Origin: a virus
IMG/VR virus record: IMGVR_UViG_3300030098_003782
Location: 1-64,000 of that record
Direction: 5' to 3' (one strand)
Length of the DNA stretch: 64,000 nucleotides
The translations under genes were made by a program, and so were the position numbers. The stretch's first letter is position 1. The number at the start of each line of letters is the position of its first letter. Below are positions 13,268 through 18,994 of the stretch, piece by piece. Below the pieces are notes generated by a model that saw only the letters and a program-made list of their open reading frames with translations, was not told the DNA's origin and made no database searches.

Positions 13268-13627
13268 TCATTCAAGATAATTACAAATATCATATAAACC
13301 GTATTTTAATGTTAGCTCTTCTCCCTGTTCTATTTTTCTTAATGTTTTTAATCTTCTATAATCATCATCTCCTTCATCTTCTATTAGTTCACAATTAGGT
13401 TCTTCTGAATGATTTATAAAACCTCCTAATGGTGTCCTTATATAATTATGTTGAAAATTTGGATCATAAACATGAGTAATACCTATAACCACCTCTCCCG
13501 GAATATCTTCTTTTGCGAGGATCCCTGCTCCATGAATATTTGATGGTCCTATTGTTAAGTACTCTGGAAGAGGGTTATAAGGTTCTTTATCTTTACATTT
13601 ATCCATATTAATAATAATTTTGATCAA
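13268..13627 (-). CDS. SET-domain protein, putative protein lysine methyltransferase (119 aa)
   Basis: The whole protein is a compact SET domain. The motif GPSNIHGAGILAKEDIPGE (27-45) matches the first SET motif (GxGxFA type), FINHSEEPNCE (70-80) matches the S-adenosylmethionine-binding NHSxxPNC motif, and GEELTLKYGLYD (102-113) matches the closing E-L-x-x-Y motif. No pre- or post-SET cysteine cluster is present. It overlaps the TerL stop codon by 20 bases, and a second ATG at codon 8 would nearly remove the overlap. Its target could be a virion or host protein; methylation in this phage is inferred only from the family. Confidence 0.75.
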   Translation of the reverse strand: MIKIIINMDKCKDKEPYNPLPEYLTIGPSNIHGAGILAKEDIPGEVVIGITHVYDPNFQHNYIRTPLGGFINHSEEPNCELIEDEGDDDYRRLKTLRKIEQGEELTLKYGLYDICNYLE

Positions 13628-15578
13628 ACCACTTATCTGTAGCTCTATCTTCTAATATATCTTTAACTTCTGCATTATATAATTCTCTAGTATGATACAT
13701 TCCTATCATTAATGCCATTACACGGTCAAAGTTTCCTACGTGATTAAATTTAATTAGTTCCAATAATAATGCAGGATCATATATTTTATGCAAATTTAGT
13801 AATTGTTTTCCACTTTCGTCAGTATTTCTTACAGTATTTAACCAATCTCTTATATATATCTCACCTTGACGTTTTCTAGCATCGGTCATATGCATTCCAT
13901 ATTGACGTTTTACTGTCTTACTCCTAAGTTCTCTTTTATCTAACATTTCAAATTCTTCTTGAAGTTTATGTAACTTCCTATATCTTTTTGCGTAAGCTAT
14001 AACCTCACCACGGTCATTCTCAAATCCTATCTTACATCCATAATAATCTGCTAATAAAAATAAATTTCTATTATAATCGTCTTGTGTTTTAGGTCTTCCT
14101 ACATAAGAAGCTACTATAATATCATCTGGTTGAGAAAGATTATTAGGACGTTTAATTACATAAGCTGCTCCTAAAGAGGAACTGTCTGCAGATTGATTTT
14201 GGCCATAAGGGTCATGACAAATTACATACATATTTAAAGGAACTTGTTGTTCTTGATTTTTATAAGGAGCTTCATATATAACTACAGCTCCAGTTTTATC
14301 ATCATCTTTTCTATGAGGGAATTTAATTATTTGTCTAAGATCTCCATCAGGAGTAAATTTAACTTCTCCTTTGGAATTATGATATAATTTACCAACTGTT
14401 CCAATAGATTGAAGACCTCTAGCTTTAACAATATTATATTGTTCTTGTAGTGATGCAATATCAAATAAATTAGCTGTTACTTGTAAGGTAGCTTCTTGAG
14501 GAGAAAAAGGGTGCTCTGCTATATATTGGTCTAACGATTTTGCATCAGCTGCACCTTTTTTCTTTTCCCTCATATCTTTTTCATATTCTACCGCATCATC
14601 TTCTATTGAATTTCCTTGATTATCTATAAATCCATCTAAGTTTTTTTGAATAGGAATAAAATATCCACATTTAGTTCCAAATGCACCTTCATCCCAAATA
14701 TTATCATAATCCATACAATCATAAGCTGCAGGGTTATAGAATATCTCTTCCATTGCTTCAAAATCTGCACCTTCTGTACCACCTGTACCAAATGCAATCA
14801 TCATCCCTAAAGTTTTTGCTCCTTGTCTCATAGTAGGCATTGTTACCTCCCAAGCTTTTAATAATCCTGGAAATGAACCTGCTTCTTCAAAAAATACTAA
14901 TTCTCCTGCTTTACCCCTAACTTTATCTGGAGCATCTTTTAAACTTACCCCCATTATTTGAGATTTCATCCCCATTTCAATCTCTAATCCATTTACTTTC
15001 TTTTTATATCCTGCCATTTTATGCATCTCCCTATCTCTTAATCTAGGTTGAGCCCATGCAGTATGATCATCTATAAATGATAAGAATTCCCAAGCTTTAG
15101 ATAGAAGACCATCACCAATTAAATATTCTTTTTGCGCTGCAAATACGAAATTTTTAGAATTTTTTATAAAGAAATAATTACGAGCAAGCATAGATCCAGC
15201 TTTATATGAATATCCTTTACGTCTAGCTTTAAGAACAATCATATGTTTATTATCTGCTCTAGCTTTATCTATTTCTTGGAAATATTCCCAATCTCCATCA
15301 TAAAATCTTGGAAAAGATCTTTCACGTCTAGATTGAGTTGTGCCATCCGGTAACTTTTCATCTATAGCCCTATCAATAGGACAATAGTTTAAATAAAAAT
15401 AATGAAATCCAGTAACATGTAGTTCATCTACTTGATATCCATAAAGACATCTTTTTCTTTCCTCATCCCAAAAGTCGTAATATTCTTTTGTTCCAGGAAG
15501 TGCTCTTGTATAATACCCGTGCTCTAAGAATGTAAGTGCTGCTGGTCTTATTCTATTTATATCTTTAAATTTAGACAT
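13608..15578 (-). CDS. terL: Large terminase subunit (DNA packaging ATPase-nuclease)
   Basis: A 656-residue protein. The ATPase part shows a Walker A-like segment KARRKGYSYK (117-126), a Walker B GELVFFEEAG (225-234), and a coupling motif IAFGTGG (261-267). The C-terminal RNase H-like nuclease part shows CHDPYG with Asp 456 and a later acidic FENDRGE segment. It packages DNA into the prohead through the portal. Its start overlaps the preceding 90-residue gene by 22 bases and its end overlaps the SET-domain gene, so this run is probably translationally coupled. Confidence 0.9.
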   Translation of the reverse strand: MSKFKDINRIRPAALTFLEHGYYTRALPGTKEYYDFWDEERKRCLYGYQVDELHVTGFHYFYLNYCPIDRAIDEKLPDGTTQSRRERSFPRFYDGDWEYFQEIDKARADNKHMIVLKARRKGYSYKAGSMLARNYFFIKNSKNFVFAAQKEYLIGDGLLSKAWEFLSFIDDHTAWAQPRLRDREMHKMAGYKKKVNGLEIEMGMKSQIMGVSLKDAPDKVRGKAGELVFFEEAGSFPGLLKAWEVTMPTMRQGAKTLGMMIAFGTGGTEGADFEAMEEIFYNPAAYDCMDYDNIWDEGAFGTKCGYFIPIQKNLDGFIDNQGNSIEDDAVEYEKDMREKKKGAADAKSLDQYIAEHPFSPQEATLQVTANLFDIASLQEQYNIVKARGLQSIGTVGKLYHNSKGEVKFTPDGDLRQIIKFPHRKDDDKTGAVVIYEAPYKNQEQQVPLNMYVICHDPYGQNQSADSSSLGAAYVIKRPNNLSQPDDIIVASYVGRPKTQDDYNRNLFLLADYYGCKIGFENDRGEVIAYAKRYRKLHKLQEEFEMLDKRELRSKTVKRQYGMHMTDARKRQGEIYIRDWLNTVRNTDESGKQLLNLHKIYDPALLLELIKFNHVGNFDRVMALMIGMYHTRELYNAEVKDILEDRATDKWFDQNYY

Positions 15579-15829: not shown

Positions 15830-16350
15830 TACATACTATATTTATTTACTTCAACTCCACCTCTATTAGTGTTAGCTGCTTGTTCTTCTTTTTTGACTAT
15901 ATCTTCTAATCTTGTAAGGCCGTCTACAACTTGCCCCATTTTAGATAAATTAGCTATTAAATCTTTTGCGTGAAATATAGGTTTACCATGATCATCCATT
16001 AAATGTAAGTCTATATCTCTAAAATATTTTTCTAATTTTATTATAGATTCTCTAGCTGCTTTTAATAATCTTACTGCTGAGGTTTCTATTAATTTTTCAT
16101 ATTTATCACAAGCTCCTAATATTTTTTCAGAAGGAGTCCATTTCTTTTTTTCTCCAAATATACTATTTTTTACTTCAACTTGACGTTGATCCCACTCATA
16201 AACTGAAAACGGTGATCTATGATCTATCATAAAATATACAAATGAAAGTTCATCCGTATTTAATTTTTTAAACTCTGGTATAGATAATGCGTATGCACTA
16301 GGTACAGCTTTATCATCATCTATATGTATTAAATCATCTCTCAATGCCAT
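15829..16350 (-). CDS. Candidate small terminase subunit (173 aa)
   Basis: No named family is recognised. The protein is predominantly helical; the C-terminal half (ESIIKLEKYFRDID to GLTRLEDIVKKEEQ) could form the oligomerising core of a small terminase. Its place two genes before TerL, with overlaps on both sides, fits that role. No clear helix-turn-helix is visible, so the assignment is a hypothesis from context. Confidence 0.5.
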   Translation of the reverse strand: MALRDDLIHIDDDKAVPSAYALSIPEFKKLNTDELSFVYFMIDHRSPFSVYEWDQRQVEVKNSIFGEKKKWTPSEKILGACDKYEKLIETSAVRLLKAARESIIKLEKYFRDIDLHLMDDHGKPIFHAKDLIANLSKMGQVVDGLTRLEDIVKKEEQAANTNRGGVEVNKYSM

Positions 16351-16819
16351 AATAGTCTCCTCTTTTTATCCATTCTTTTTTTGCATGTTCTTCTAGTCTC
16401 AAATTATTATATAGTTTAACATCTACTACATACTCTGAAGAATATAATTCCTTTAATATAGTATATCTATGATTACCGTCCATTAATACATATCTATATA
16501 TTTTATTTGTTTTTTCACACTGTCTTATTTTTTGACTTATTGTTAAAGGGTCTTTTAATCCATATTCTTTTATATCTTCTTTTAATTTATCCCAATCATA
16601 TTTAGTATCATTTATTATTTTGGTAATATACCTATTAGAAGTATATATATCTTTTAAAGGTATTTTAATATAAGAGTAAGTCATATCTCTTTTGACATCT
16701 ATTATTTTAACACTTAATCTATAACGTCTAAATAAATTTAAAAATTCTCTTTTTATTTTATTCCATTTTTGAGGGCGATACCCCAAAAATCTTCGTAATT
16801 TAAATAGAAGTTTTTTCAT
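16334..16819 (-). CDS. ParB/Srx-like nuclease-fold protein (161 aa)
   Basis: Residues about 50-140 follow the ParB N-terminal fold. IPLKDIYTSNRYI corresponds to box I, DWDKLKEDIKEYGLKDPLTI to the helix and strand before the core, and VLMDGNHRYTILKEL to box II (GNHRY in place of the usual GxHR). No DNA-binding ParB C-terminal domain is present, so it is a stand-alone domain of the kind phages use as a CTPase/nuclease or regulator. It overlaps genes on both sides in the packaging cluster. Possible roles are packaging-site recognition or DNA processing. Confidence 0.65.
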   Translation of the reverse strand: MKKLLFKLRRFLGYRPQKWNKIKREFLNLFRRYRLSVKIIDVKRDMTYSYIKIPLKDIYTSNRYITKIINDTKYDWDKLKEDIKEYGLKDPLTISQKIRQCEKTNKIYRYVLMDGNHRYTILKELYSSEYVVDVKLYNNLRLEEHAKKEWIKRGDYYGIER

Positions 16820-18031: not shown

Positions 18032-18266
18032 CTTTAAATATTATTTTTGCTCTACCATTCTCTATACTAATAGAAGCTGTTTTAGATTGCCTATTAAATT
18101 CTTCAATATATTCAGATATATTTTCTTTATCACATATATATGATAAAAATACCTGTAATTCCTTAGCAGCTAGTCTAGCAGAATCTCTAATTTCTTCTGC
18201 TTTAACCTTAGCATCTAATAAGCTTTGAAAGTCTTCTATTGATATAGTAACAGATCCGTTTACCAT
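18024..18266 (-). CDS. Small helical protein (80 aa)
   Basis: Begins with a beta-type stretch (MVNGSVTISIEDFQSLLDAK) followed by a long helix (EEIRDSARLAAKELQVFLSY) and a short C-terminal strand pair. No family recognised. It overlaps the GroES-like gene by 7 bases, so it is made from the same transcript. A partner or regulator of capsid assembly is possible by position only. Confidence 0.5.
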   Translation of the reverse strand: MVNGSVTISIEDFQSLLDAKVKAEEIRDSARLAAKELQVFLSYICDKENISEYIEEFNRQSKTASISIENGRAKIIFKDV

Positions 18267-18523
18267 TTACCTAATAGTTGATGTTCAGAAATCATTATAC
18301 AAGATTTTCCATCAAGTTCTACTAACATGGCTTCTGATCTAGGATCAACCATAGCGGTTTCACCTACTTTAACAAAACCACATTGTGGTCCTACAGCAAG
18401 TACCTCTAATATATTAGTGGAAATACTTTTTGCAGTACTCTCATCTAAAATAATTCCAGAATCTGTTGTTGATTTGCTTGGGTCTGGAAGGACAACCCAC
18501 GATCCGTTTGGTTTAAATTTCAT
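18260..18523 (-). CDS. GroES-like co-chaperonin (87 aa)
   Basis: The layout matches the GroES/Cpn10 beta barrel. The strand GSWVVLPDPSKSTTDSGIIL (8-27) corresponds to the V-L-P-D-P...S-G-I-x-L part, a mobile loop region spans about 28-36, and LEVLAVGPQCGFVKVGETAM (39-58) corresponds to the V-x-A-V-G-x...x-V-K-V-G-D segment. A final strand ends EHQLLGKW. T4 gp31 is the known phage precedent: it replaces host GroES so that GroEL can fold the capsid protein. It is the first gene of the late block, directly after the divergent regulatory region. Confidence 0.75.
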   Translation of the reverse strand: MKFKPNGSWVVLPDPSKSTTDSGIILDESTAKSISTNILEVLAVGPQCGFVKVGETAMVDPRSEAMLVELDGKSCIMISEHQLLGKW

Positions 18524-18541: not shown

Positions 18542-18573
18542 CAAATATATAAACTATTTTTTTATAAATCCAA
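18542..18573 (-). promoter_or_regulatory. Possible Bacteroidota-type promoter for the late block
   Basis: The minus strand has TATATTTG (18542-18549), the TANNTTTG -7 box, about 19 bases before the GroES-like start codon. A TTG lies 21 bases upstream (18571-18573), slightly longer than the usual 17-19 spacing. The same TATATTTGTAC string occurs in the better-spaced promoter at 24624-24652. Confidence 0.4.
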
Positions 18574-18600
18574 ATATTTTTTATATTTTTTTCAATAGGG

Positions 18601-18840
18601 TATAATTTCCCCCCTTGATTTTCTCTATTTCAAGTTGTGATTTCCCTCTAGCAGTGCTCCTTTATTTAAGGGACCCAAGGATAGTAATACTGATGTTAAT
18701 TCACCGCACTTACCTGTGTGCAATCTATCCTAACTAGAGTTTATACGTTAACTCTTTTGCAATTACCGGAGAAAACTCTATCTCTATTTGAGACTACAAT
18801 CCGATGTCTAATCCCGTTTTTGGTTACCAGGGGATGAATG
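18601..18840. ncRNA. Candidate structured RNA or origin element
   Basis: A stretch richer in G and C than its surroundings with a series of short complementary arms: GGATAG/CTATCC (18679-18684 with 18725-18730, enclosing GCAC/GTGC), AGAGTT/AACTCT (18736-18741 with 18750-18755), GAGA/TCTC (18769-18772 with 18781-18784), AGAC/GTCT (18791-18794 with 18806-18809) and CCC/GGG (18813-18815 with 18831-18833). There is no coding frame and no tRNA pattern. Strand and function are not known. It could be an RNA or a folded DNA origin. Confidence 0.4.
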
Positions 18841-18904
18841 ATATTGCGATGCAAACATACAAAAAAATCCTAATAAAAAAAATAAAACATAAAAAATTTT
18901 TTTT

Positions 18905-18948
18905 GAGGGGGTTTGTGAACGTGTGAACCACTACCATCAAAGACCCCC
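18905..18948. promoter_or_regulatory. Hairpin upstream of the first early gene
   Basis: GGGGGTTTG pairs with CAAA(GA)CCCCC around an inner part containing GTGAACGTGTGAACCAC. It is 46 bases before the ATG at 18995. The neighbouring T-run is on the 5' side for the plus strand, so it is not a normal terminator for that strand. It may be an operator, an early RNA leader or part of an origin. Confidence 0.4.
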
Positions 18949-18994
18949 ACTTAGTTTCGATAATTTTATCACCCAACCTTAAAAATATAATAAC

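Follow-up and report, generated by a model that had tools for sequence, protein, structure and literature searches.

What is the GC-rich stretch that separates the two divergent gene blocks of this crAss-like phage? The phage is represented by an IMG/VR record of 68 kb, and the window, by which we mean the whole stretch of DNA analysed, comprises positions 1 to 64,000 of that record. A virion block on the minus strand and a replication block on the plus strand (DNA polymerase A, helicases) diverge at ~18.6–19 kb. The virion block opens with a groES-like co-chaperonin gene (18260–18523, minus strand) and contains the gene for the terminase large subunit, terL (13608–15578, minus strand), whose product is 42% identical to that of the gut phage cr114_1 (Suoliviridae). 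An ORF on the same strand (16334–16819) weakly resembles ParB-like partition proteins and families of DNA methyltransferases. An initial annotation had singled out positions 18601–18840 as a GC-rich unit with local complementary arm pairs and without a gene, tRNA or known RNA family, and had offered a replication origin, an abundant phage RNA or a target of the virion polymerase as explanations. The description holds. GC content is 37–39% at 18600–18850 compared with 18–24% in the left flank and ~29–31% just to the right, and the proposed borders are nearly exact relative to the conserved element at 18595–18850. A scan of the window found neither an ORF nor a tRNA in 18601–18840, comparison with relatives found no coding frame in the element, and Rfam 15 gave no match at gathering score either for the element in the window or for its divergent relatives; relaxing the threshold to E ≤ 10 added nothing of note for the window element.

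The arm pairs themselves are present, but whichever strand is folded, the single sequence gains nothing over dinucleotide-shuffled versions of itself (z = −1.06 and −1.13), so the hairpins of the lone sequence are within what chance provides. It is in relatives that the pairing becomes compelling. The covariance analysis of related phages that the initial annotation had called for finds conserved pairing in ten helices on the minus strand, and from this comparison we are nearly certain that the element is a conserved, previously undescribed RNA: a structured noncoding RNA of ~255 nt folding into two domains (18595–18850, minus strand). The 5′ end is placed at about 18848, and the 3′ border where conservation is lost. 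Mean DNA identity of relatives to the window is 77% over the RNA as against 69% over groES. A search of open-access journal papers found no previous report of a conserved RNA belonging to crAss-like phages.

All helices lie on the minus strand. Domain I (18759–18847) is closed by P1 (18847–18843 with 18763–18759) and contains P1a (18834–18831 with 18815–18812), P2 (18805–18800 with 18770–18765) and P2a (18793–18790 with 18784–18781). Domain II (18632–18754) comprises P3 (18754–18751 with 18635–18632), P4 (18738–18733 with 18652–18647), P5 (18731–18725 with 18684–18678), P5a, P5b and P6 (18675–18670 with 18660–18654), arranged around a nested P3–P4–P5 junction. A short 3′-terminal hairpin or tail (18595–18616) carries the near-invariant sequence AAGGGGG (18616–18610). 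A Shine–Dalgarno role for this sequence was considered and dropped because the alignments contain no AAGGAGG variants. RNAalifold had also proposed a long-range CCC/GGGGG pairing, which we rejected since the covariation sits in the local P1a hairpin instead. In divergent members from several clades P1a is frequently capped by a GNRA loop (GAAA, GAGA, GUAA), and an additional small hairpin follows P1 in domain I. P2a varies between a small stem-loop and, in locus L121, an extension of nearly 100 nt, and another divergent member, L257, adopts the same general layout when folded unaided.

Over the full length (20 sequences, 49 pairs in the ten helices), 96.6% of paired cells retain pairing as against 88.8% in shuffles, 22 pairs are doubly changed as against 12.2, and the covariation score is 0.334 as against 0.176, a value reached by none of 500 shuffles; shuffle comparisons of this kind can be inflated by relatedness among the sequences, but controls in which the pairing partner is slid along the alignment retain that relatedness and give just 34–47% paired. 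Larger samples of the separate domains agree, with a score of 0.326 against 0.174 and 206 doubly changed cells against 65 for domain II (61 sequences), and a score of 0.494 against 0.251 for domain I (34 sequences). The compensatory changes thus exceed both the shuffled and the slid controls, and they are accompanied by strand-specific wobbles and by a promoter in the right orientation.

Read on the minus strand, the wobble positions comprise 95 G-U and 15 A-C pairs, which identifies the minus strand as the RNA strand. The same asymmetry bears on two of the functions first proposed for this locus. Pairing in DNA hairpins would give G-U no advantage over A-C on one strand, so an origin formed by such hairpins is not supported, and the GC-skew switch in the window merely tracks gene orientation. 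An origin of another kind, in which the transcript serves as an RNA primer or forms an R-loop to start DNA replication at the divergent region, would suit an RNA that the window and most relatives place in the gap separating the divergent virion and replication blocks. We nevertheless regard it as very unlikely: in L257/G018 the RNA lies outside any divergent gap (both ORFs flanking it in phage G018 run in its own direction), the skew switch again follows the gene strand, and a simple R-loop needs no ten-helix RNA with a conserved 3′ end.

The virion polymerase fares worse still. CrAss-like phages carry such a polymerase, and for the initial annotation's idea of a virion-polymerase target the hairpins would be recognised at the DNA level, in the manner of N4 promoters. 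We give the idea almost no credence, given that the strand-asymmetric G-U pairs show selection on RNA and that a host-type promoter lies directly upstream of what is a ~255-nt multi-branched RNA. A second conserved element, at 18885–18975 on the plus strand and thus oriented toward the replication block, occurs once in the window and in ~15 relatives; it consists of AAAAAATTTTTTT followed by GGGG..TTTGTGAACGTGTGAACC..AAAGACCCC. We consider it a candidate early rightward promoter or leader, possibly one used by the virion polymerase, and as an early rightward signal it is a better candidate than the element at 18595–18850.

The host-type promoter is recognised by its −7 box, TATGTTTG (TAnnTTTG, 18859–18852, minus strand), which is of the Bacteroidetes type, directly precedes the RNA and falls just outside the interval 18601–18840. 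The −33 box is weak in the source phage. TAnnTTTG occurs just upstream of the RNA in 76 of 82 dereplicated relatives (11.1 expected), at a distance that is nearly constant within the main clade. As for the suggested abundant phage RNA, it is the phage RNA part that is borne out, by covariation, by the strand-specific G-U pairs and by this promoter at a fixed place.

How widespread is the RNA? Among 44 marine loci fetched through groES, 39 carry it upstream of that gene. Searching with nhmmer detected 36 of the 39, L040 among them with weak support (E = 0.02); L040 was then confirmed by a covariance model, which also brought in L035, L042 and L044. The remaining five contigs stop less than 1.03 kb from groES. 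A DNA-pattern search contributed 118 more loci, 115 of them with the element, and two further patterns yielded 53 new loci, all positive at 56–112 bits. The total comes to ~200 homologous loci, with some contigs counted more than once. Many marine crAss-like phages thus have the RNA once per genome, where the block of virion genes begins, 3–9 kb upstream of terL (3 kb in the window) and on the same strand, an arrangement that holds down to 25–40% terminase identity. Each of six divergent records tested has a crAss-type terminase with a single RNA copy upstream on the same strand. Carriers include L254, L257, L271 and L297, as well as L121, whose nearest terminase is that of phi14:2 (38%). One relative has a tRNA gene near the RNA (L161:4494–4568). 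The terL gene of the 91-kb RNA-bearing phage L254/G017 (G017:76311–78290) has six in-frame TGA codons, which suggests TGA recoding in that phage.

The RNA also reaches the gut. Covariance model R2, built without the sequence of gut phage cr118_1 (Besingivirus coli), finds it there with 37 bits (E = 7.6e-7), in the gap before the chaperonin gene and 5.3 kb ahead of the terminase gene; a Blast search of the element against phages gave no match, and this genome was reached by covariance models only. A genome scan, supplemented by cmsearch for six, detected no copy in 19 other named Crassvirales, including crAss001, crAss002, p-crAssphage, DAC17, phi14:2, ProJPt-Bp1 and Fpv1; diverged copies could be missed by the looser scan used for the rest. 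Inspection by eye of the divergent gaps of phi14:2 and cr114_1 revealed no equivalent. A mobile or host-derived RNA finds no support: a core pattern of the element (one pattern only) occurs in none of 84,980 bacterial and archaeal species.

An RNA in this position could be a cis-acting leader of the late (virion) operon, which would fold as it leaves the host RNA polymerase and render that enzyme termination-resistant along the whole virion block, like the put RNA of HK022 and EAR, or would exert some other control of late transcription. It begins a few nucleotides past a host-type promoter and, across very divergent phages, is always found where the terL block starts, on the same strand; work on phi14:2 suggests that late genes are read by the host polymerase (PMC8375218). 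Terminator-like hairpins are not enriched 3′ of the RNA (4 of 190 as against 2.4 in shuffles), and at many loci a same-strand virion accessory gene begins 3–30 nt after it, so a transcript that reads on, with the RNA as its leader, is possible. These two observations also count against a separate transcription unit. On the other side, groES has its own promoter (TTTG at 18572–18569 and TATATTTG at 18549–18542, minus strand), and a TAnnTTTG box of its own precedes groES in 85 of 85 relatives, downstream of the RNA, so that the main operon can start without the RNA. Moreover, in L257 a 9-bp stem followed by a T run, an exception among the relatives, forms a terminator that closes the RNA unit just after the RNA, and the same operon runs without the RNA in other Crassvirales. 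Leader and separate gene thus each have evidence on their side, and a leader seems to us possible but rather doubtful.

The distance between the RNA and groES is itself variable, from less than 150 nt to 5.5 kb, which also speaks for a separate unit. The RNA is not bound to any one neighbour either: the next gene may be groES, PhoH-like or tail-like while the place of the RNA is unchanged. Where the gap is 0.25–5.5 kb it forms a variable slot with same-strand accessory genes, which by eye are LamG-like, tail-like or peptidase-like (for example in L002, L011, L029, L039, L068, L104 and L292).

The universal groES promoter and the L257 terminator lead us to prefer, at about an even chance, a separate RNA made by the host polymerase and acting in trans, although a cis element, too, would be expected to sit where the virion block begins. 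Judging from the host-type promoter, the host RNA polymerase would transcribe the RNA early, once the DNA enters, as a unit apart from groES, and the folded RNA would then bind a host machine or a universal phage machine that the phage always meets. Among the window ORFs tested, no phage protein was common to all genomes with the RNA and absent from all genomes without it, which points to a host or universal partner. A phage protein dedicated to the RNA is a less likely partner than a host component (RNA polymerase, ribosome, RNases, defence) or a core protein of virion assembly.

One special case of such a trans-acting RNA would be one that takes part in assembling the virion or packaging its DNA, much like the pRNA of phi29. 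The complex fold, the linkage everywhere to terL, portal and capsid genes and the confinement to phages by the one core pattern would suit it. But of 20 named Crassvirales whose terminases are homologous, 19 gave no match to the RNA, Rfam's pRNA gives no match, and plain synteny could explain the linkage; we consider a packaging role improbable.

CrAss-like phages rank among the most abundant human gut viruses and are also common in the sea. A complex RNA expressed from a host-type promoter at the head of the virion block would mean that part of their programme is run by RNA. More tentatively, and with somewhat more doubt than belief, we suggest that the RNA is ancient, nearly universal in a large marine branch of the Crassvirales and a working part of the infection machinery, for example by capturing host RNA polymerase or ribosomes or by serving in assembly or packaging; if so, it would represent a new mechanistic class of phage RNA. 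The family as defined here by models, motif and positions is directly testable, with cr118_1 as a named gut genome that carries it.

The RNA resembles several known RNAs but is not a member of their families. Bacterial 6S RNA is a single long hairpin with a central bubble, and is ruled out by the multi-branched covarying structure and by the lack of a match to the 6S model; a group I intron was likewise rejected, there being no Rfam match. The early TROVE gene of crAss001 (PMC8375218) prompted the idea of a Y RNA in a Ro RNP, which was discarded because the ten IMG/VR records that bear the RNA and cr118_1 contain no TROVE (Ro60) gene; only crAss001, itself without the RNA, has one. In cr114_1 (NC_055897), a RAGATH-7 RNA and a hatchet ribozyme, both on the minus strand, lie in an unannotated 1.4-kb gap (L164:1319–2784). 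They resemble ours in being structured RNAs placed between genes of a Suoliviridae phage, less than 2.5 kb from the divergent region, but they belong to other families and lie on the opposite strand, and cr114_1 lacks the RNA described here. The 6S RNA of lambda (the pR′ leader) is likewise a short RNA from a host-type promoter ahead of the late genes. It ends at a strong terminator and to our knowledge is not a conserved complex fold, whereas our RNA has a conserved fold and terminators after it are rare. The put RNA of HK022 and EAR are structured antitermination RNAs at the start of long operons, just after a host promoter. Ours shares their promoter-proximal place at the head of an operon but is larger and folds differently, and with a groES box throughout, the downstream operon need not depend on the RNA promoter. 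The pRNA of phi29 is, like ours, a phage-only structured RNA, and hairpin loops could in principle mediate contacts; the crAss-like RNA differs in being ~255 nt long, multi-branched, built of ten helices and unmatched in Rfam, and searches detected no copy in most of the Crassvirales that share the terminase type. GOLLD and ROOL are large phage-associated RNAs, much larger than ~255 nt. Orphan structured RNAs of phages and bacteria with Rfam entries and cryo-EM structures (PMC12286853), they share with ours the condition of a highly structured orphan; the crAss-like RNA stands apart from them in matching no Rfam family and in being fixed at the start of the virion block in crAss-like phages.
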